Origin: Clostridia bacterium | Lineage (GTDB): Bacteria > Bacillota > Clostridia > DUPQ01 | Assembly: GCA_016938455.1 (NCBI GenBank) | Contig: JAFGUQ010000011.1 | Coordinates: forward strand, 1 to 34,733 | Reading direction: 5' to 3' | Length of the DNA: 34,733 bases | In this document: piece by piece, positions 5,432 through 21,262 of the stretch | Numbering within the stretch: the first letter of the stretch is position 1 | Layout: each line of letters begins with the position of its first letter | Program-made: the position numbers and the translations under genes | Notes under the pieces: generated by a model | What the model was told of the DNA's origin: nothing | The model's input: only the letters and a program-made list of their open reading frames with translations | Databases searched by the model: none

Positions 5432-6118
5432 ATGAAAACTGGTGTTGTCATTGCAGCTGGTGGATCTTCTACCAGAATGAATCAAAAAGATAAACTGATG
5501 ATCATGATTGAAAACGTGCCGGTGATTATAAGAAGCATTGCGGCCTTTTTAAATTTAAAGGAAATTACTCAGATTGTGGTGGTATGCCCTCAAGAAAAAA
5601 TAAAACAGTATAAAAATCTGATTTCAGGAGTCTTCAACGATAAAGTGACAGTCATTGGAGGAGGCTGTTCAAGGCGGGAATCAGTTTTCAACGGAATCAG
5701 ACAGCTTGATGCTGATACAGATTATGTGCTGATTCATGACGGTGCAAGACCATTGATTAAAGAAACTGATATCAGAAAATGTATCAATGCTACAAAGCAG
5801 TATCTGGCATGCTGTCTTGCTGTCAGAAGCAAAGATACGATCAAAGTGGTCGATGAAGACCTGAAAATCGAAAATACTCTAGACAGAAATAAACTCTATA
5901 ACATTCAGACCCCTCAGGGTTTCACATATGAAATTGCTTATGAGATGCATCTGATGGCAGAAAAATACAAAATTGAGGCTGTTGATGATTGCATCCTTGC
6001 AGAAAAAAGCGGGCATGAAGTCTATGTTGTTGAAGGAAGTTATGACAATATCAAGATAACTACTGATGAAGACATCAAGTATGTCGAATTTCTGCTACTC
6101 CACCGTCAGAATACATAA
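5432..6118 (+). CDS. ispD: 2-C-methyl-D-erythritol 4-phosphate cytidylyltransferase
   Basis: IspD couples CTP to MEP in the non-mevalonate isoprenoid pathway. The 228-residue length is typical. Nucleotide-binding signature AAGGSSTRM (8-16), RRESVFNGI, the IspD signature VLIHDGARPL and IQTPQGF are all present. The start ATG directly follows the TAA of the PIN-TRAM gene with no clear ribosome binding site, so translational coupling is likely. Its last 24 bases overlap the 3' end of the convergent ispF gene. Confidence 0.95.
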   Translation: MKTGVVIAAGGSSTRMNQKDKLMIMIENVPVIIRSIAAFLNLKEITQIVVVCPQEKIKQYKNLISGVFNDKVTVIGGGCSRRESVFNGIRQLDADTDYVLIHDGARPLIKETDIRKCINATKQYLACCLAVRSKDTIKVVDEDLKIENTLDRNKLYNIQTPQGFTYEIAYEMHLMAEKYKIEAVDDCILAEKSGHEVYVVEGSYDNIKITTDEDIKYVEFLLLHRQNT

Positions 6119-6562
6119 AGACATGATTCCAAGACCTTTTCCGAAAGAAGTCAATCCCTCCCCGGAAGTAGCTGTGATACCAACACTGCTTGGACTGATT
6201 GATAATAATTCTGAAATGCTTTCCTTGATTTCCTCAATATAGGGAGATAATCTCGGAGTTTTACATTCAATGGAAAATGAGACATGTGTTATTTTATAGT
6301 CGCTCATGTACTTCAAAGCTTCTCTCACATACTCTTTACTGTCCTTGATTCCTTTTCTCAGGCACAAATCATCAGCAATTTCACCTAAGATGTTCACACC
6401 GGTTATTCCAGAAACAGCATTGGTCAGTGAGTGAAGAATAACATCGGCATCAGAATTACCTTTCAGCGGCATATGGTTGTGAATAAAAACACCACCCAGA
6501 ATGAGTTCTTTTCTGTCATCTTTAGTAAAAAGATGACTGTCCTGGCCTATTGAACACTTCAT
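6095..6562 (-). CDS. ispF: 2-C-methyl-D-erythritol 2,4-cyclodiphosphate synthase, divergent type
   Basis: IspF closes CDP-ME 2-phosphate to the cyclic diphosphate, two steps after IspD. The 155-residue product keeps the metal ligands D8 and H10 (GQDSH) and H44 (SDADVILHS), and the C-terminal ITATSGEGLTSFGKGLG that matches the usual KATTTEGLGFTGRGEG. The usual DIGKHFPDTDP loop is replaced by LGEIADDLCLRKG. I recall a divergent IspF subgroup with this form (GQDSH, SGITGVNILGE), so activity is probable. ATG 6562 has a strong GGGAGGG ribosome binding site and its own promoter. It is the only minus-strand gene here, whereas ispD and ispF are usually codirectional or fused. Confidence 0.9.
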   Translation of the reverse strand: MKCSIGQDSHLFTKDDRKELILGGVFIHNHMPLKGNSDADVILHSLTNAVSGITGVNILGEIADDLCLRKGIKDSKEYVREALKYMSDYKITHVSFSIECKTPRLSPYIEEIKESISELLSISPSSVGITATSGEGLTSFGKGLGIMSLCILTVE

Positions 6563-6724: not shown

Positions 6725-8086
6725 GTGATACATATTTATACATTGAATTCTTTGAATATCTGTCTTGATGTCAACAGCGGAACCATCCATCTTCTTGATG
6801 AAGTGACAAAAGATATTTTATTGAAAGCTCCTGAAAAAGAGATGATTGAAAATGCAGCTTCTATGCTGTCAGATAAGTACAGCAATCTGGAACTTAAGGA
6901 AGCGCTTTCTGAAATAAAAAGTTTGATTGACGAGAAAAGCCTGTACTCACCTGATTTTGACAGAGCTATGTTTACTGGTAAGACAATTAAGAAAGTGGTG
7001 GTTAAAGCCATGTGTCTTCATATGGCACATGACTGCAATCTCCGATGCAAATACTGCTTTGCGGAAAAAGGCTCATATGGTGGGAAAAAAAGCCTGATGT
7101 CATTCGATGTAGCCAAACAGGCCATCGATTTTCTGCTTGCGAACAGTGGGTCTAAAAAGAATGTGGAAGTAGATTTTTTTGGAGGAGAACCGCTTTTAAA
7201 TTATGATGTCATCAAACAGACAGTGGAATATGCAAAAGAAAAGCAGAAGGAATACGGAAAAACTGTCCATTTCACAGTGACGACAAACGGGACTATCCTG
7301 AATGAGGAGATGGAAAAATTTCTTAATGAGAACATGGATAATATTGTACTCAGTCTTGACGGCAGAAAAGAAATAAATGACGCGGTGAGAGTGTATCCGT
7401 CAGGAAAAGGTTCATATGATCAGATCATAGACAACATTAAGACCATTGCTAATAACCGAAATGGTAAATCATATTTTGTAAGAGGTACATATACAAGAGA
7501 CAATCTGGATTTTTCCAAAGATGTGAGACATATATATGAAGAACTCGGGTTAAAGGAGATATCCATAGAACCGGTTACCGGCGGAGCGTTTACCTTGACT
7601 GATGAGGAAATCAATGTGGCATTGAAAGAATATGAGCAGTTTGCCTGTGAGTATGCCTTGCAGGATGATTACCGGTTTTATCATTTTAACATCAGCTTGT
7701 ATCACTCACCATGTATCTATAAAAGAATTGCTGCCTGCGGTGCCGGTGTTGACTACTTTGCTGTGTCTCCTGATGGGGATTTATTTGCGTGTCATCAGTT
7801 TGTTGGAGAAAAGCAGTTTAAGATGGGTGATGTTTTCAATGGCATAACAGACTATCAGAGGGTCAACCAATTCCATAACAGCAATGTATTTACAAAGAAG
7901 GGCTGTCAAGACTGTTTTGCCAAGTATTTCTGTTCCGGAGGATGCCATGCCAATGCATATTACACAAATAATGATATTTTAATTCCTGATGAAAATGCCT
8001 GTAAAATGCAGAAGAAGAGGATTGAATGCGCTTTGATGATTGAAACGCTCAGAGCGCTGAAAAGGAGTGAAAATGAAGAACAGTAA
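6725..8086 (+). CDS. SCIFF-type thioether-forming radical SAM/SPASM peptide maturase
   Basis: The 453-residue protein opens with MIHIYTLNSLNICLDVNSGTIHLLDEV, the N-terminal peptide-recognition region typical of SCIFF maturases. The radical SAM cluster motif CNLRCKYC (C104, C108, C111) follows, then FGGEPLL and a SPASM auxiliary-cluster region with CGAGVDYFAVSPDGDLFACHQ and CQDCFAKYFCSGGCHANA. Family members install Cys-to-alpha-carbon thioether bonds in the small SCIFF peptide (six Cys in about 45 residues). Start is GTG 6725 with AGAGG at 6713-6717. The usual small peptide gene is not upstream: the 162 bases to ispF hold only promoters, and I see no Cys-rich small ORF nearby. The product overlaps the downstream HAD gene by 14 bases, so they are coupled. 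Confidence 0.9.
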   Translation: MIHIYTLNSLNICLDVNSGTIHLLDEVTKDILLKAPEKEMIENAASMLSDKYSNLELKEALSEIKSLIDEKSLYSPDFDRAMFTGKTIKKVVVKAMCLHMAHDCNLRCKYCFAEKGSYGGKKSLMSFDVAKQAIDFLLANSGSKKNVEVDFFGGEPLLNYDVIKQTVEYAKEKQKEYGKTVHFTVTTNGTILNEEMEKFLNENMDNIVLSLDGRKEINDAVRVYPSGKGSYDQIIDNIKTIANNRNGKSYFVRGTYTRDNLDFSKDVRHIYEELGLKEISIEPVTGGAFTLTDEEINVALKEYEQFACEYALQDDYRFYHFNISLYHSPCIYKRIAACGAGVDYFAVSPDGDLFACHQFVGEKQFKMGDVFNGITDYQRVNQFHNSNVFTKKGCQDCFAKYFCSGGCHANAYYTNNDILIPDENACKMQKKRIECALMIETLRALKRSENEEQ

Positions 8087-14220: not shown

Positions 14221-14649
14221 ATGAAAGACGTTATTATCTCATTGAAAGGATATAGTGACCACGAGCAGAAACTTGAGTTTGTGACTGAAGGGAAATACTA
14301 TAAAAAGGGGAACCAGTATTTTATAACTTATAACGAATCTGAAATGACTGGAATGGATGGAACCACCACCACTCTTAAGGTCAGTGACCAGGTGGTGTCG
14401 TTAATCAGATTCGGTGCGGTCAATTCCAACTTTGTATTCCAGGAAGGGAAAGTGAACACCTCAAGATACATTACTGAATTTGGTGAATTTTCCGTGGAAA
14501 TCAAAGCAAACAGGGTTTTTGTTGAAATGAATGATTTCGGCGGAGTCATAGAAATGGATTATCTTCTGGATCTTTCAGATGGCAATGATACTGAAAACAA
14601 GTTTTACATGACAATTAAAGAGGCAGGAAATAATGAATATAATCAATAG
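14221..14649 (+). CDS. DUF1934 (YwiB-like) beta-barrel protein
   Basis: The 142-residue protein has the DUF1934 pattern: VIISLKGYSDHEQKLEFVTEGKYYKKGNQYFITYNESEMTGMDGTTTTLKV near the start, and a lipocalin/calycin-like series of beta strands. Function is unknown. It sits directly before argS and overlaps it by 17 bases, the same arrangement as ywiB-argS in Bacillus, which supports the assignment. ATG 14221 follows AAGGACGG. Confidence 0.9.
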   Translation: MKDVIISLKGYSDHEQKLEFVTEGKYYKKGNQYFITYNESEMTGMDGTTTTLKVSDQVVSLIRFGAVNSNFVFQEGKVNTSRYITEFGEFSVEIKANRVFVEMNDFGGVIEMDYLLDLSDGNDTENKFYMTIKEAGNNEYNQ

Positions 14650-16324
14650 TATTGAATTAAGCATAAAAAAAATAACTGAAAACAGCATCAGAAAGTGCAT
14701 GACAGAAAAACTGATTCCGGAATTTGAAATTGATGACATCAATGTAGAAAAACCGAGGGAAAAAGAGCATGGGGAGTTTTCAACCAATATTGCCATGATG
14801 ATGGTGAAGAAAGCGAAAATGGCTCCGGTAAAAATAGCTTCCATGTTAGTTGACAATATGGATTTCAAGAACACATATATTCTAAAAGCAGAAACTGCCG
14901 GACCGGGTTTCATCAATTTTTATTTATCTGATCAATGGCTTTACGACAACACTGAAATGATTATTAAGCAAAAAGATAATTATGGCAGTTCTGATTATGG
15001 CAAAAACGAAAAAGTAGTTGTCGAGTATGTCTCAGCCAATCCCACAGGGCCGCTTCATATGGGAAATGCAAGAGGTGGTGCGCTGGGAGACCTTCTGGCA
15101 AATGTGCTTATCAAGGCGGGGTATCATGTCAGCAAGGAATTCTATGTCAATGATGCCGGGAACCAGATAGAAAAATTCGGACTCTCTCTGGAAGCCAGAT
15201 ATCTTCAGGAACTGCTGGGAGAGGACAAAGTAAAGTTTGATGAGGATCTATACCAGGGTGCTGATATTATTGACCATGTGAAAAATTATATTAAAGAAGG
15301 CAGAGAAAATCTGCTGGATAAAGACAGTGAAGACAGAAAAAAGATACTTGTTGACTATGCGCTTCCGAAAAACATCAGAGCCATTAAAAAGGGACTGAAG
15401 CGATATGGAATCTCTTATGACAAGTGGTTCAGTGAAAAGTCCTTATACGAAAGTAAAGCAGTTGATGAGCTTATTGATTATCTTGTTAAGCATAATCATA
15501 CATTCATTAAAGATGAAGCACTCTGGCTGAAGGGAGAATCAATCGGAAGTGAGAAGGATGAGGTGTTAACCAGAAGCAACGGTTTTCCCACTTATTTTGC
15601 GGCAGACATTGCTTACCACTGGAATAAATTCAAAACAAGAAAATTTGACAGGGCAATTAATCTTTTAGGTGTAGATCATCATGGCCATGTTGCCAGAATG
15701 AAAGGGGCTATGAATGCGATTGGCGTAGGTGAAGAAAAGCTTGATATTATTATTTTTCAGTTGGTCAGACTGTATCGAAACGGTGAAGTGGCCAGAATGT
15801 CAAAAAGAACAGGTAAAGCCATCTCACTTGATGATCTGCTTGATGAGGTAGGTGTTGATGCGGCAAGATTTTTCTTTAACCTGAAAACAAGTGGGAGTCA
15901 TCTTGATTTTGACCTTGATCTTGCCAAGAAGCAGTCAAATGAGAATCCGGTATTCTATGTTCAATATGCTTATGCAAGAATTTGCAGCATGTTAAGAATT
16001 TTAAAAGAAGACGATGCTGATATAGACAAGGAAGAGGGAATTGATTATTCACTTCTCAAGAATAATGAAGAAATTGAATTGATGAAAAAGCTGGCGGAAT
16101 ATCCGAATGACATCATCATTTCATGTCATACTCTGGAACCGTCCAGAATGACCAGATATGTTCTTGATTTAGCTTCCCTGTTTCATAGCTTTTATAATGC
16201 CTGTCGAGTAAAAGGCGAAAATGAAGAACTGTTATATGCCAGAATGGCACTAGTGAAAGCAACGAAAATAGTTCTGAAGAATGCGCTTGATATACTGAGT
16301 ATCAAAGCGCCGGAAAAAATGTGA
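14633..16324 (+). CDS. argS: Arginyl-tRNA synthetase
   Basis: Class I aminoacyl-tRNA synthetase of 563 residues, a normal length. It has the N-terminal Arg-tRNA-binding domain, VEYVSANPTGPLHMGNARGGALGD with the HIGH-type motif HMGN, NLLGVDHHGHVARM, the KMSKS equivalent RMSKRTGKA, and the anticodon-binding DALR domain at the C-terminus. The start overlaps the DUF1934 gene; AGGCAGGAAA precedes the ATG. No T-box or other leader is present because the gene is inside an operon. Confidence 0.97.
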   Translation: MNIINSIELSIKKITENSIRKCMTEKLIPEFEIDDINVEKPREKEHGEFSTNIAMMMVKKAKMAPVKIASMLVDNMDFKNTYILKAETAGPGFINFYLSDQWLYDNTEMIIKQKDNYGSSDYGKNEKVVVEYVSANPTGPLHMGNARGGALGDLLANVLIKAGYHVSKEFYVNDAGNQIEKFGLSLEARYLQELLGEDKVKFDEDLYQGADIIDHVKNYIKEGRENLLDKDSEDRKKILVDYALPKNIRAIKKGLKRYGISYDKWFSEKSLYESKAVDELIDYLVKHNHTFIKDEALWLKGESIGSEKDEVLTRSNGFPTYFAADIAYHWNKFKTRKFDRAINLLGVDHHGHVARMKGAMNAIGVGEEKLDIIIFQLVRLYRNGEVARMSKRTGKAISLDDLLDEVGVDAARFFFNLKTSGSHLDFDLDLAKKQSNENPVFYVQYAYARICSMLRILKEDDADIDKEEGIDYSLLKNNEEIELMKKLAEYPNDIIISCHTLEPSRMTRYVLDLASLFHSFYNACRVKGENEELLYARMALVKATKIVLKNALDILSIKAPEKM

Positions 16325-16331
16325 GGGAAAA

Positions 16332-17807
16332 ATGAAAAATCTTAAATATGGCCTGGTGATTTTACTAGTGGCTGCTCTGGTCGTTCCCGGTCTTGTTATG
16401 GCTAACAATGAAAATGGTAAAGTCAATTCATATCTTGATTTGATGATTGAAAAAAGCAACAGCACCATTGATACAAAGAATGTTACAGCTGATATGATAA
16501 CCGGAGCTTTTTCAGAAACCGATAAGTTTTCATACTTTCAGGCTGTAGAAACATATAATACAGAGCAGAATACTTATATCAATGCAGAATATGTGGGAAT
16601 CGGAGTCAGTATGACAGCGCATATCAAAGGGGTGGAAATTGTCTCTGTTTTTGAATATTCACCTGCATCATTAGCAGGTTTGAAATCAGGTGATATCATA
16701 ATCAGTGTGAATCATGAGAACATTACGGGGAAAAGTCTAGAATATATTGCATCTTTAGTGAAAGGGCCGGTTAATACCTATGTCACACTTGGAATCTTAA
16801 AGAATAATGAAGGACCAGTCCTCTATTATGATTTAAGCAGGCAGGTGGTTGCCATGAAGACTGTCAAATCATATATCATCAATCATGTGGGGTATGTATA
16901 CATCTCATCATTTACTAATGAAACAGGAAAAGAATTCAAAGAAGCTCTTGAGAAATTCAATAAAAAAGGAATCAGTGATGTCATTCTTGATCTGAGAGAT
17001 AACGGAGGCGGAACCTTACAGGGATGTATCGATGTTGCAAGGGCTGTTTTATCTGAATGTGTCGTCACAAAAATGGATTTCAAATACAGCGGATATCTTG
17101 ATATCAGATATGAGGCCATGAAAAATGATGAGACATACAATATGGTCCTTCTTGTCAATGAAAACAGTGCCAGTGCCTCTGAAGTGGTCACAGGTGCATT
17201 GAAAGATAATAAAGCTGCGGTTGTTGTCGGTGAAAAGACTTTCGGGAAAAGCGTGGTTCAATCGTCATATGAAATATTGACACCAAAGGCATATGATCTT
17301 TATTCAGCAAAATATGCAATCAGTGATATGTTCACATTAAGCAGATATGTTTCCTTTTATGAAAAACATATTGATACAGATTATTTAGGTGCAGCTAAGC
17401 TTACCATCGGTGAATATGTGACTCCAAATGGCAGCAGAATCAATCTGGTGGGGATAGAACCTGATATTAACGTAGAATATGACGGGAGTTTATTCATAAA
17501 CATCAATAATCTTGATAATATGCTCTGGATCAGAGCAAAATATGATGTCGGCATGACAAGCTATGAAATCTATAGAGCTAAAGTCATATTAAAAGAGTTT
17601 GGCTATGAAGTCGGAACATTGAATGTTTTATATGATGAGACATTCAAACAGGCTGTAAAGCAGTTTCAGGATGATTATGGTCTGTACCCGTATGGGGTTC
17701 TTGACTACACCACTCAGGATAATATCAATAATATACTTAGACTGAGTTATATCAATGAAGATATACAGCTTAAAAAAGCATTTGAAGTGATTAAGGAGGG
17801 AAAGTAA
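16332..17807 (+). CDS. S41-family carboxyl-terminal processing protease (CtpA-like), catalytically intact
   Basis: The 491-residue secreted protein has a signal peptide (about 1-25, cleavage after VMA likely), a PDZ domain (about 88-160, VEIVSVFEYSPASLAGLKSGDII), an S41 peptidase core, and a C-terminal peptidoglycan-binding-1 domain (about 415-475). The substrate loop DLRDNGGG and the catalytic dyad are present: S281 in NSASASE and K306 in FGKSVV, with the 25-residue separation seen in E. coli Prc (S452/K477). Relatives cleave C-terminal ends of extracytoplasmic proteins, often wall hydrolases. GAGGG precedes the ATG. It lies 1 base before an inactive paralogue. Confidence 0.93.
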   Translation: MKNLKYGLVILLVAALVVPGLVMANNENGKVNSYLDLMIEKSNSTIDTKNVTADMITGAFSETDKFSYFQAVETYNTEQNTYINAEYVGIGVSMTAHIKGVEIVSVFEYSPASLAGLKSGDIIISVNHENITGKSLEYIASLVKGPVNTYVTLGILKNNEGPVLYYDLSRQVVAMKTVKSYIINHVGYVYISSFTNETGKEFKEALEKFNKKGISDVILDLRDNGGGTLQGCIDVARAVLSECVVTKMDFKYSGYLDIRYEAMKNDETYNMVLLVNENSASASEVVTGALKDNKAAVVVGEKTFGKSVVQSSYEILTPKAYDLYSAKYAISDMFTLSRYVSFYEKHIDTDYLGAAKLTIGEYVTPNGSRINLVGIEPDINVEYDGSLFININNLDNMLWIRAKYDVGMTSYEIYRAKVILKEFGYEVGTLNVLYDETFKQAVKQFQDDYGLYPYGVLDYTTQDNINNILRLSYINEDIQLKKAFEVIKEGK

Positions 17808-17808
17808 A

Positions 17809-19239
17809 ATGAAAAAAAGCAATCGCATCGTAATCATTGTCCTTATATTCACTCTCATCTGTTCAGTCGCTTTTTCAGCATCAACAAAAGTAGATGAAAA
17901 CTATCTGTATCATTTCTATGATTTCATGCAGACACTTTATTATAGAGATATATCAACAGACGACCTTGTCGGAGGGTCATTCAATGGAGTCTTAAGCGAA
18001 ACTTCCATATATTCATGTTATGAACAGAATCAGGTAAATGAAACATTTAATTCCAATGTACTGGGAGTATCTCTGGAAAAAGTCAGAACAGGTTTACTGG
18101 TAAGCAATGTATATCCGGGAACAAACGCCTCAAAAATCGGACTTGAAACAGGAGATGTTATTTATAGGGTCAACCGGATCAGCACCAGCATCATGAATAT
18201 CATGGATCTGGATTATGTCATTGAAGAAGCTGGAAGCAAAGCTGAAATAGAAGTCATCAAAGCAGAAACCGGTTCTATTGTTAAACTGCAATGTGAATTA
18301 AGCAAAGGCTATATATCGCTTATTGACTTTTTTATCAAAGATGAGTTCGGCTATATAAGAATTAATCAGTTTAAAGACTTAACCTCAGATGAAGTCGGAA
18401 AAGCACTTCAGTTTTTTGACAACAATCAAATTAAAAACATCATTGTCGATCTCAGGGATCTAATTTCAATGAATATTGAAGAAGCAGGCGAAGTCGCTGA
18501 CTTTTTCCTTCCATTCGGAAGGATTGCAAGCGGCGGTGATATGATTCTGTCAGCTTCTATTAAAAGTGATTATCATTTCGTTAACATCATAATCAATGAA
18601 AAGACTCAAGGAGCGGGAGAAGTCATTGCAAGAGCAGTCAAAAATTACAGAACCGGGAATGTTTTCGGACAGACATCATATGGTCTTGTTGAAGCAGTCA
18701 AAACTTATCCGGTGTTTACAGACGCAGCTTTTTCTTGCTATAGTAAGCTTGCCGGAACAACAGACATTGACGGCATTGTCAATTATATCAACATGAATCA
18801 GCTGTCACTTTCAAATGAGTATGTTTCCGGTTACCTTCATTTAGTTGAGAACGAATTGTATGACAATAACAACATTTCTTATGAAGGTGGGGTCACCCCA
18901 GACTATATATTGAATGCAAGCAGGGTAAGACTGGAGATAAATCCGCAGGATAACGGAATATGGATCAGAAAAGATTACCAGCTTAATGATGTCAGCTATG
19001 ATGTTTTTGTAGCAGAAAAAGTTCTGAGTCAATTGGGCTATTTTAAACAGACACCTGATGTTACATTTGATATAAACACTCAGAAAGCAGTTAATTTGTA
19101 TAAAGCATCAGTTAATCTGCCTCAGGATGGGATATTGGACATGACCACACAGAATATTTTAAACTATAATCTGTTCAAGACGTATATAATGAAAGATGAG
19201 TGCATTGTAAACGTAATGAATTTAATCAAGGAGAACTGA
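17809..19239 (+). CDS. S41-family protease paralogue lacking the catalytic Ser and Lys (pseudoprotease)
   Basis: The 476-residue protein has the same layout as its upstream neighbour: signal peptide (about 1-23), PDZ domain (about 85-160), S41-like core and a C-terminal peptidoglycan-binding-1-like domain (about 395-455). The active site is gone. The SASASE block becomes TQGAGE with Gly268 at the Ser position, Lys becomes Leu293 (SYGLVEA), and DLRDNGGG becomes DLRDLISM. The reading frame is open and keeps an excellent AAGGAGGG ribosome binding site, so the protein is probably made and may act as a partner or regulator of the intact protease; that role is inference. Confidence 0.88.
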   Translation: MKKSNRIVIIVLIFTLICSVAFSASTKVDENYLYHFYDFMQTLYYRDISTDDLVGGSFNGVLSETSIYSCYEQNQVNETFNSNVLGVSLEKVRTGLLVSNVYPGTNASKIGLETGDVIYRVNRISTSIMNIMDLDYVIEEAGSKAEIEVIKAETGSIVKLQCELSKGYISLIDFFIKDEFGYIRINQFKDLTSDEVGKALQFFDNNQIKNIIVDLRDLISMNIEEAGEVADFFLPFGRIASGGDMILSASIKSDYHFVNIIINEKTQGAGEVIARAVKNYRTGNVFGQTSYGLVEAVKTYPVFTDAAFSCYSKLAGTTDIDGIVNYINMNQLSLSNEYVSGYLHLVENELYDNNNISYEGGVTPDYILNASRVRLEINPQDNGIWIRKDYQLNDVSYDVFVAEKVLSQLGYFKQTPDVTFDINTQKAVNLYKASVNLPQDGILDMTTQNILNYNLFKTYIMKDECIVNVMNLIKEN

Positions 19240-19240
19240 C

Positions 19241-21262
19241 ATGAAAGACACACTTAGATTCAGACAGATTCATCTGGATTTCCATACCAGTGAATTAATT
19301 GAAAATGTAGGAAAGGAATTTAACAAAGAAGAGTTTTCCAGCACATTGAAAGAAGCCGGTGTTGATTCCATCTCCTGCTTTGCAAGATGCCACCATGGAA
19401 TGATGTATTATGACTCCAAGAAATTCCCGGAGAGGATTCATCCTAATCTGGTCAATAAAAATCTGTTGAAAGAACAGATTGAAGCCTGCCACAGTGCAGG
19501 AATCAAGGTGCCTGTATATATTACTGTTCAATGGGATTACTATACTTCCATCCATCATCCTGAATGGGCGATGAGAGATGTGACAGGAGCACCAATGTGG
19601 CAGCATTCACTAAAACCCGGATTTTACCATGGGCTCTGTGTCAACACTCCTTACAGAGAATTTTTAAAAGCACATACCATTGAAATTCTTGAAGAACTTG
19701 AACCTGATGGCATATTTTACGATATTGTTCTTGAAAGAGCCTGTGCCTGTGAATATTGTATCAAATCAATGCATGAAAAAGGATATAACCCATTAAATGA
19801 AAAGGACAGACTGACACATTACAGAGAAGTGCTTGATGACTTTAAATTTGAGATGACTGCTTTGATTAATCAATACAAACCGGGCATTTCCATATTTTAT
19901 AACGCAGGTCATATCTCCCATGCTACAAAAAGCTCAGTAAAAGCCTATTCACATCTTGAGCTGGAAAGTCTTCCTGGCGGAGAATGGGGATACATTCATT
20001 TCCCGACCACTATACGCTATGCCAGGAATTTAGGGCTGGACTGTCTGGGACATACTGGTAAATTCCATACATCATGGGGTGACTTCCATTCATTCAGAAA
20101 CAAGGCAGCACTGGAATATGAGTGTTTCAGGATGCTGGCATTGAATTCCAAGTGCCTGATCGGTGATCAGCTTGAACCCGGTGGAAAACTCTCAAAAGAA
20201 GTGTATGAGCTCATAGGAAGTGTGTACAGACAGGTTAAAGAAAAACAGCCCTGGTGTGAAAATGCCACTCCATTAACGAATATAGGGGTCATAGCTCCTG
20301 ATCAGTTCACTCATTCAAACATGGACAGCATGATTTTAGAACAGGTAGGTGTAGTAAGACTGCTTGAGCAGCTGTCACTGCAGTTTGACTTCATTGATTC
20401 TGAAATGGAATTCTCCCGATTTGAACTGATTATTCTGCCAGACTCCATTCCGGTGGAAGGAGAATTTAAGGAGAAGCTTGAACAATATATTAAGCAGGGC
20501 GGGAAAGTACTGGCTACTTTTGAATCAGGTATGGACAGCCAAAAAGAAAAATTCACATTGAAACAACTGGGAGTCGAAGTCTCAAATGTGACATATGACT
20601 CATATCATCAAATTGTCAGAGGTGTTTTTGATCTTAACAATTCATATGCAGACTATATCATTCCTCAAGGACCTATGGGGAAGGGATTGCATACAACAGA
20701 GTATGTCATGTATACCAAAGGGGTTGAAGTCGCTGCGACCACTGGTGAGACCTTGTGTGATACCTATCGGCCGTTCTTCAACAGGACATATCAGCATTTC
20801 TGTTCTCACCGTCAAACACCGTCATCCGGTGAAAAAGATTACAGTGCCATTGTCAAAGGGGAAAATACCATATACTTCTCTCATCCTATTTTCAGATTAT
20901 ATGCTTTACGAGCACCAAAATGGGTTAAGACGTTGCTGGAAAATGCAATTAACGAATTAATCGGACAACCTTTAATAAAGCATAATGGACCTTCGTCCGT
21001 CATTACCACCATCAACCGTAAAGAGCACTTTGATGTGATGCATATTCTTTGGTATATACCTGAAAAGAAGAGTGAGCAGCTGGAAATACTTGAAGATGTT
21101 TTCCCATATCACAACCTTGATGTTGAATTGAAAACTGACAGGAAAGTCACTTCGTTGACAATTGTTCCGAATGGTATTGGACTTTCTTTCAGGCAGATAG
21201 ATAATATCGTTTATTTTACGATTCCTGAAATTCTGGGACACTGCATGATTGAAATAAAATAG
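19241..21262 (+). CDS. Putative glycoside hydrolase, GHL6-like barrel with a C-terminal trimerisation-like domain
   Basis: The 673-residue protein has no signal peptide, so it is probably cytoplasmic. The N-terminal half looks like a glycoside hydrolase TIM barrel: GVDSISCFARCHHGMMYY, GIKVPVYITVQWDYY, and PDGIFYDIVLERACACEYC, where the Asp of FYDI and the CACEYC cluster match my recollection of hypothetical glycosyl hydrolase 6 (GHL6), related to GH29/GH42-like enzymes. The middle (about 345-480, LTNIGVIAPDQF, then LIILPDSIPVEGEFKEKLEQYIKQGGKVLAT) resembles a beta-galactosidase trimerisation domain. Substrate is unknown. It is 1 base after the pseudoprotease stop with GGAGA in front, so it belongs to that operon. 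Promoter and substrate genes are not nearby. Confidence 0.78.
   Translation: MKDTLRFRQIHLDFHTSELIENVGKEFNKEEFSSTLKEAGVDSISCFARCHHGMMYYDSKKFPERIHPNLVNKNLLKEQIEACHSAGIKVPVYITVQWDYYTSIHHPEWAMRDVTGAPMWQHSLKPGFYHGLCVNTPYREFLKAHTIEILEELEPDGIFYDIVLERACACEYCIKSMHEKGYNPLNEKDRLTHYREVLDDFKFEMTALINQYKPGISIFYNAGHISHATKSSVKAYSHLELESLPGGEWGYIHFPTTIRYARNLGLDCLGHTGKFHTSWGDFHSFRNKAALEYECFRMLALNSKCLIGDQLEPGGKLSKEVYELIGSVYRQVKEKQPWCENATPLTNIGVIAPDQFTHSNMDSMILEQVGVVRLLEQLSLQFDFIDSEMEFSRFELIILPDSIPVEGEFKEKLEQYIKQGGKVLATFESGMDSQKEKFTLKQLGVEVSNVTYDSYHQIVRGVFDLNNSYADYIIPQGPMGKGLHTTEYVMYTKGVEVAATTGETLCDTYRPFFNRTYQHFCSHRQTPSSGEKDYSAIVKGENTIYFSHPIFRLYALRAPKWVKTLLENAINELIGQPLIKHNGPSSVITTINRKEHFDVMHILWYIPEKKSEQLEILEDVFPYHNLDVELKTDRKVTSLTIVPNGIGLSFRQIDNIVYFTIPEILGHCMIEIK

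Follow-up and report, generated by a model that had tools for sequence, protein, structure and literature searches.

CtpB of Bacillus subtilis is an S41 protease that acts in sporulation as an active homodimer (PDB 4c2c-4c2h; PMC3808539). Each subunit consists of N-terminal helices, a PDZ domain, a core/cap region, and a peptidoglycan (PG)-binding-like dimerization domain; the N-terminal helices and this C-terminal domain, which resembles PG-binding domains "despite distinct function," close the dimer into a ring, and dimerization is essential for activity (PMC3808539). Catalysis depends on a Ser309-Lys334-Gln338 triad, in which the Q338E substitution alone abolishes activity (PMC3808539). Other CTP proteases are paired with a separate noncatalytic partner, as in Prc-NlpI and CtpA-LbcA (PMC5686067, PMC6050968, PMC11021448), and act on cell-wall hydrolases (PMC6050968, PMC5686067). 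It is also well known that dead paralogues can regulate active enzymes and that the S41 fold can outlive its chemistry. The C. difficile pseudoproteases CspA and CspC act, as a heterodimer, upstream of the active CspB (PMC12880746), and vertebrate RBP3/IRBP is an S41-derived protein that has lost the protease catalytic residues and been retained (PMC11750400).

The window analyzed here, a stretch of 34,733 nucleotides, corresponds to contig G000:C274, one of 301 in a 3.0-Mb genome that is 92% complete. Two consecutive genes, here called P1 and P2, lie in it between argS and a gene for a GHL6-domain protein, with the following features.

16332..17807, plus strand: P1, an intact CtpB-type S41 protease of 491 aa, above the cut-off for TIGR00225 (prc)
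16989..17012, plus strand: DLRDNGGG loop of P1, residues 220-227, by alignment
17172..17174, plus strand: catalytic Ser281 of P1, aligned with CtpB Ser309
17247..17249, plus strand: catalytic Lys306 of P1, by alignment
17259-17261, plus strand: Gln310 of P1, third residue of the triad, by alignment
17809..19239, plus strand: P2, a catalytically dead S41 paralogue of 476 aa with the domain order of P1, from Pfam, alignment, orthologues, and tree
18016..18018, plus strand: Cys70 of P2, invariant among P2 orthologues and Tyr in P1 proteins, by alignment
18448..18471, plus strand: DLRDLISM of P2, residues 214-221, in place of DLRDNGGG, by alignment
18610..18612, plus strand: Gly268 of P2 (GGA) at the nucleophile position, aligned with P1 Ser281
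18685..18687, plus strand: Leu293 of P2 (CTT) at the general-base position, aligned with P1 Lys306
18697-18699, plus strand: Val297 of P2 at the Gln position, aligned with P1 Gln310
19201..19203, plus strand: Cys465 of P2, invariant among full-length P2 orthologues and Gln in P1 proteins, by alignment

P1 comprises a hydrophobic N terminus, N-terminal helices, a PDZ domain, an S41 core/cap, and a C-terminal PG_binding_1/dimerization domain. It scores 228.6 bits against TIGR00225 (cut-off, 218.6) and has the S41 fold, PDZ domain, and Ser-Lys-Gln triad by which S41/CtpB proteases are recognized. P2 is its homolog: the two are 25% identical over their length and match each other with E = 1.8e-30, and they match CtpB at 7e-40 (P1) and 4e-13 (P2). 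A fold search with the P2 model returned CTP proteases, which confirms the family only. A sequence-only reading of this DNA had described a shared PDZ domain, S41 core, and C-terminal peptidoglycan-binding domain, and Pfam matches above the cut-offs for Peptidase_S41, PDZ, and PG_binding_1 in both proteins agree with it; the term "peptidoglycan-binding" stands as the name of the Pfam match and not as a function, the domain being homologous to the CtpB dimerization domain (PMC3808539). The hydrophobic N termini of both proteins look like signal peptides, from which we infer export. A ribosome binding site, AAGGAGGG, followed by ATG precedes the open P2 frame, confirming the same reading on both counts, and the P2 start follows the P1 stop after a single base. 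No terminator-like site was found between P1 and P2, a null result of little weight, and no RNA family was found across the window.

All three residues of the CtpB catalytic triad are replaced in P2. The replacement of the nucleophile by Gly268 and of the base by Leu293, at the same 25-residue spacing as Ser281 and Lys306 in P1, had been proposed from the sequence and was borne out by the alignment, which adds that the triad Gln is replaced as well. The DLRDNGGG loop had been read as lost; NGGG is indeed replaced by LISM, but DLRD is still there. In S41 proteases, the glycine-rich loop after DLR is the oxyanion side. The basic PDZ residue that serves as the substrate "sensor," Arg168 in CtpB (a numbering set here by the Ser309 offset of the P1-CtpB alignment), is Lys144 in P1 and is not kept in P2, and the carboxylate-binding loop is GIG in P1 and variable in P2. 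Since P2 lacks equivalents of Ser309, Lys334, and Gln338 and a basic residue at the Arg168 position, it is most unlikely to work as a Ser-Lys protease.

This state is conserved. Eleven genomes from this order of uncultured clostridia were examined, the relatives with named records being metagenome-assembled genomes, and six carry the P1-P2 pair. The P2 orthologue of G002 is 53% identical to that of the window and those of G004, G006, and G008, from a second genus, are 36 to 38% identical; in G003, only the first 109 residues are present, the contig ending before the catalytic region. All six P2 frames are open in separate assemblies, five of them (window, G002, G004, G006, and G008) at full length. 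Each of these five, across two genera, has Gly at the serine site, no Lys, and no Gln: the three positions read G/L/V in the window and G/Q/R, G/N/T, G/E/I, and G/E/V elsewhere. The NGGG position reads LISM, LISM, LYTM, LVSM, and MVSM, within the motif D-[LM]-R-x-[LM]-x-[ST]-M-N-I, which is conserved among P2 proteins as their signature. The triad is intact in all of the other S41 homologues compared from the order, class, and phylum (∼66 of ∼66; 54 distinct plus 12 more). The PDZ, S41, and C-terminal PG_binding_1 domains are matched in 5/5 full-length P2 proteins. Residues T266, G268, A269, and E271 are conserved at the former active site, as they might be in an enzyme rewired for different chemistry; with the nucleophile, base, Gln, and glycine-rich loop all gone, and the Lys position occupied by L, Q, N, E, and E, we consider such an enzyme very improbable.

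The pair was aligned across the related genomes and dN/dS was compared, as the sequence-only reading had suggested. Between G002 and G003 (NG86), dN/dS is ∼0.12 for P2, 0.11 for P1, and 0.10 for argS; the direct P2 value covers the 109 codons of that one comparison, synonymous sites being saturated between the window and its relatives. P2 codon-position identities between the window and G002 are 0.60, 0.75, and 0.39 at positions 1, 2, and 3, so that third positions approach saturation while the first and second are conserved. Because positions 1 and 2 show much higher identity than position 3 and dN/dS is ∼0.12, these substitution patterns indicate that P2 is under purifying selection, constrained somewhat less than P1: its nonsynonymous rate is ∼1.3 to 1.5 times that of P1 (dN for the window versus G002, 0.422 versus 0.287). 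Such faster evolution is the one observation that would suit a P2 gene in decay or produced by sequencing error. That account, to which we give next to no credence, is contradicted by the orthologues. All five full-length frames are intact and 0/5 has the intact dyad that would point to sequence error; the Ser-site Gly, moreover, is common to P2 proteins that are only 36 to 53% identical. The earlier proposal of a pseudoprotease that is not simply decaying has thus held up, on a single origin, presence in two genera, purifying selection, and a P1 gene that is always adjacent.

In a maximum-likelihood tree, P2 proteins form one clade (support, 100/100) on a long stem (1.74 changes per site), and P1 proteins form another (100/99) whose branching order mirrors that of the P2 clade. 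The two clades are sisters at modest support (73/74). G021 and G058, from another family, carry one intact S41 gene between DUF1934 and pyrG, as would fit an ancestor with a single such gene and a subsequent duplication; given the modest support for the sister grouping, we regard this history as likely. P2 orthologues appear restricted to this family: none was found outside it among 291 genomes of the class (next best match, 232 bits versus 744 or more), and a scan of species-representative genomes for P2 returned four records, matching the four relatives with full-length P2.

The order DUF1934-argS-P1-P2 is identical in the window, G002, G003, G006, and G008 (the G004 contig begins inside argS), and where the contig extends beyond the pair (window, G002, and G008), GHL6 and pyrG come next. 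The P1 gene adjoins P2 in 6/6 genomes, the P1 stop and P2 start overlapping or lying 1 to 2 bases apart. In the four genomes of genus g3, DUF1934, argS, P1, and P2 are all absent between murI and GHL6, nor do these four genomes show a close P1 or P2 homologue at another site. That P1 and P2 are present or missing together would fit a shared function, but it counts as a single event, since argS and DUF1934 are missing with them; one deletion or one gain may account for it. The argS gene at 14633-16324 is a second arginyl-tRNA synthetase-like gene of its genome, another, distant one lying at G000:C130; in genus g3, just the distant type occurs. The GHL6-domain gene that adjoins the pair (19241-21262) occupies the equivalent place where the pair is absent (g3), and several of these genomes encode additional, distantly related proteins.

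We propose that P2 is most likely a noncatalytic subunit of a mixed P1:P2 ring that modulates P1, a reading that we give about an even chance of being correct. A CtpB-type S41 gene at the argS-pyrG locus would have been duplicated in tandem before two genera of the order split. P1 would have remained a Ser-Lys-Gln protease, and P2 would have lost the nucleophile, the base, the triad Gln, the NGGG loop, and the PDZ sensor residue and then been fixed as a noncatalytic protein. Outside the membrane, P2 would use the dimerization motifs at the N and C termini to pair with P1, replacing the P1 homodimer in a CtpB-like ring, and would alter the gating, substrate choice, or activity of P1. The mixed ring is the most economical mechanism because the C-terminal domain matches the CtpB dimerization domain. 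That P2 regulates or scaffolds the active protease, as suggested earlier, is an inference favored by the adjacency of the two genes, their nearly overlapping frames, their absence together from g3, and the architecture of CtpB as an obligate dimer.

Two observations count against the mixed ring. The N-terminal region, which forms one of the two dimer interfaces of CtpB, is among the most diverged parts of P1 and P2 (12 to 18% identity), which could mean separate homodimers. In G006, the P1 frame is split while P2 is intact, a reason for doubt. The sample is also small, the pair occurring in six of 11 genomes of the order. P2 has the C-terminal dimerization-type domain, and its N-terminal helices are predicted at low confidence only; AlphaFold single-chain models, built on shallow alignments, have mean pLDDT values of 55.6 and 45.7, too low for positioning either the dimer interfaces or the cysteine pair. 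The split in G006 (L036, G006:C21; 1687-3170, minus strand) leaves P1 in two open reading frames with an apparent frameshift in the PDZ region, and it may be either a real loss or an assembly error.

Retention of P2 beside a split P1 frame speaks for the main rival reading, in which P2 acts without P1 as a binding protein, its old cleft and PDZ domain reused to hold some ligand, such as a peptide or a piece of cell wall. We consider this possible, if less probable than the mixed ring. RBP3 is a precedent (PMC11750400), and the failure of P2 to keep the basic residue that P1 has at the CtpB Arg168 position also speaks for this reading. The altered catalytic motifs of P2, furthermore, are conserved and not drifting: 9 of 18 residues in the loop (214-223) plus the Ser motif (265-272) are invariant, or 10 of 26 with the Lys/Gln motif, compared with 85 of 476 overall (hypergeometric p, ∼0.009). 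This enrichment is modest, comes from five sequences with motif borders chosen by the analyst, and could reflect fold constraints; the conserved motifs also fit a structural role in a complex equally well. Against independent binding, every P2 gene has a P1 gene beside it, and genus g3 lacks the two jointly. RBP3 itself differs from P2 in having four tandem modules, serving as a retinoid and fatty-acid carrier in the eye, and having no active S41 partner (PMC11750400).

P2 might instead be a decoy or inhibitor that binds P1 substrates or the ligands of the P1 PDZ domain, with no mixed ring. The PDZ domain is present in all five full-length P2 proteins and the adjacent or overlapping frames suggest cotranslation with P1, but, given its variable carboxylate-binding loop and lost sensor residue, the P2 PDZ domain probably does not recognize the C termini bound by that of P1, and we judge this improbable. 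A stricter version of the mixed ring, which we put forward tentatively, is an obligately heterodimeric S41 protease: a CtpB-like ring of one active and one permanently dead subunit, the latter serving within the ring to regulate it or to select substrates, and perhaps locked by the two cysteines conserved in it. A Cys70-Cys465 disulfide specific to the dead paralogue is possible from the alignment. These two residues are the sole cysteines of G002 P2.

Whatever P2 does, a CtpB-like role in sporulation is unlikely for the pair because no Spo0A is detectable in the window's genome: Spo0A_C had no match in this 92%-complete assembly and was found in the control genome, B. subtilis. By analogy with other CTP proteases, cell-wall hydrolases are a possible direction for the function of P1 and P2.

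Elsewhere in the window, 6725-8086 encodes a radical SAM protein that matches the SCIFF peptide maturase family (TIGR03974; 564 bits versus a cut-off of 425); no plus-strand open reading frame of 30 aa or more was found directly upstream as a SCIFF precursor. The open reading frame at 6095-6562 (minus strand) converges on and overlaps the end of that at 5432-6118 (plus strand); the two look like ispF and ispD, respectively. Other genera of this family (L036, L106, and L107) share the overlapping convergent arrangement.

The literature search, which covered mainly open-access papers, returned no report of a tandem pair of active and dead S41 proteins. No other tandem S41 pair was found among the matches listed from 399 genomes of the phylum or in the surroundings of 12 additional loci drawn from the scans of class and phylum; these searches scored only 3 to 5 candidates per genome and could miss weak partners. 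The Csp proteins resemble the P1-P2 pair in being clostridial dead paralogues encoded with an active sister protease; they are, however, subtilisin-like, with another fold and a role in spore germination, and the known Csp heterodimer joins two dead proteins (PMC12880746). The partners in Prc-NlpI and CtpA-LbcA are lipoprotein adaptors, whereas P2 is a dead paralogue. It appears that selection has retained the dead paralogue, whose most likely role is that of a P1 partner or regulator. Bacterial CTP proteases in the papers cited are controlled by PDZ gating or by noncatalytic adaptors; if our reading is correct, a conserved dead paralogue beside the active enzyme would be a third route of control, the pair would offer a natural test of what the second ring subunit does apart from catalysis, and a bacterial paired S41 pseudoprotease would join a family whose described nonprotease member is an eye protein.
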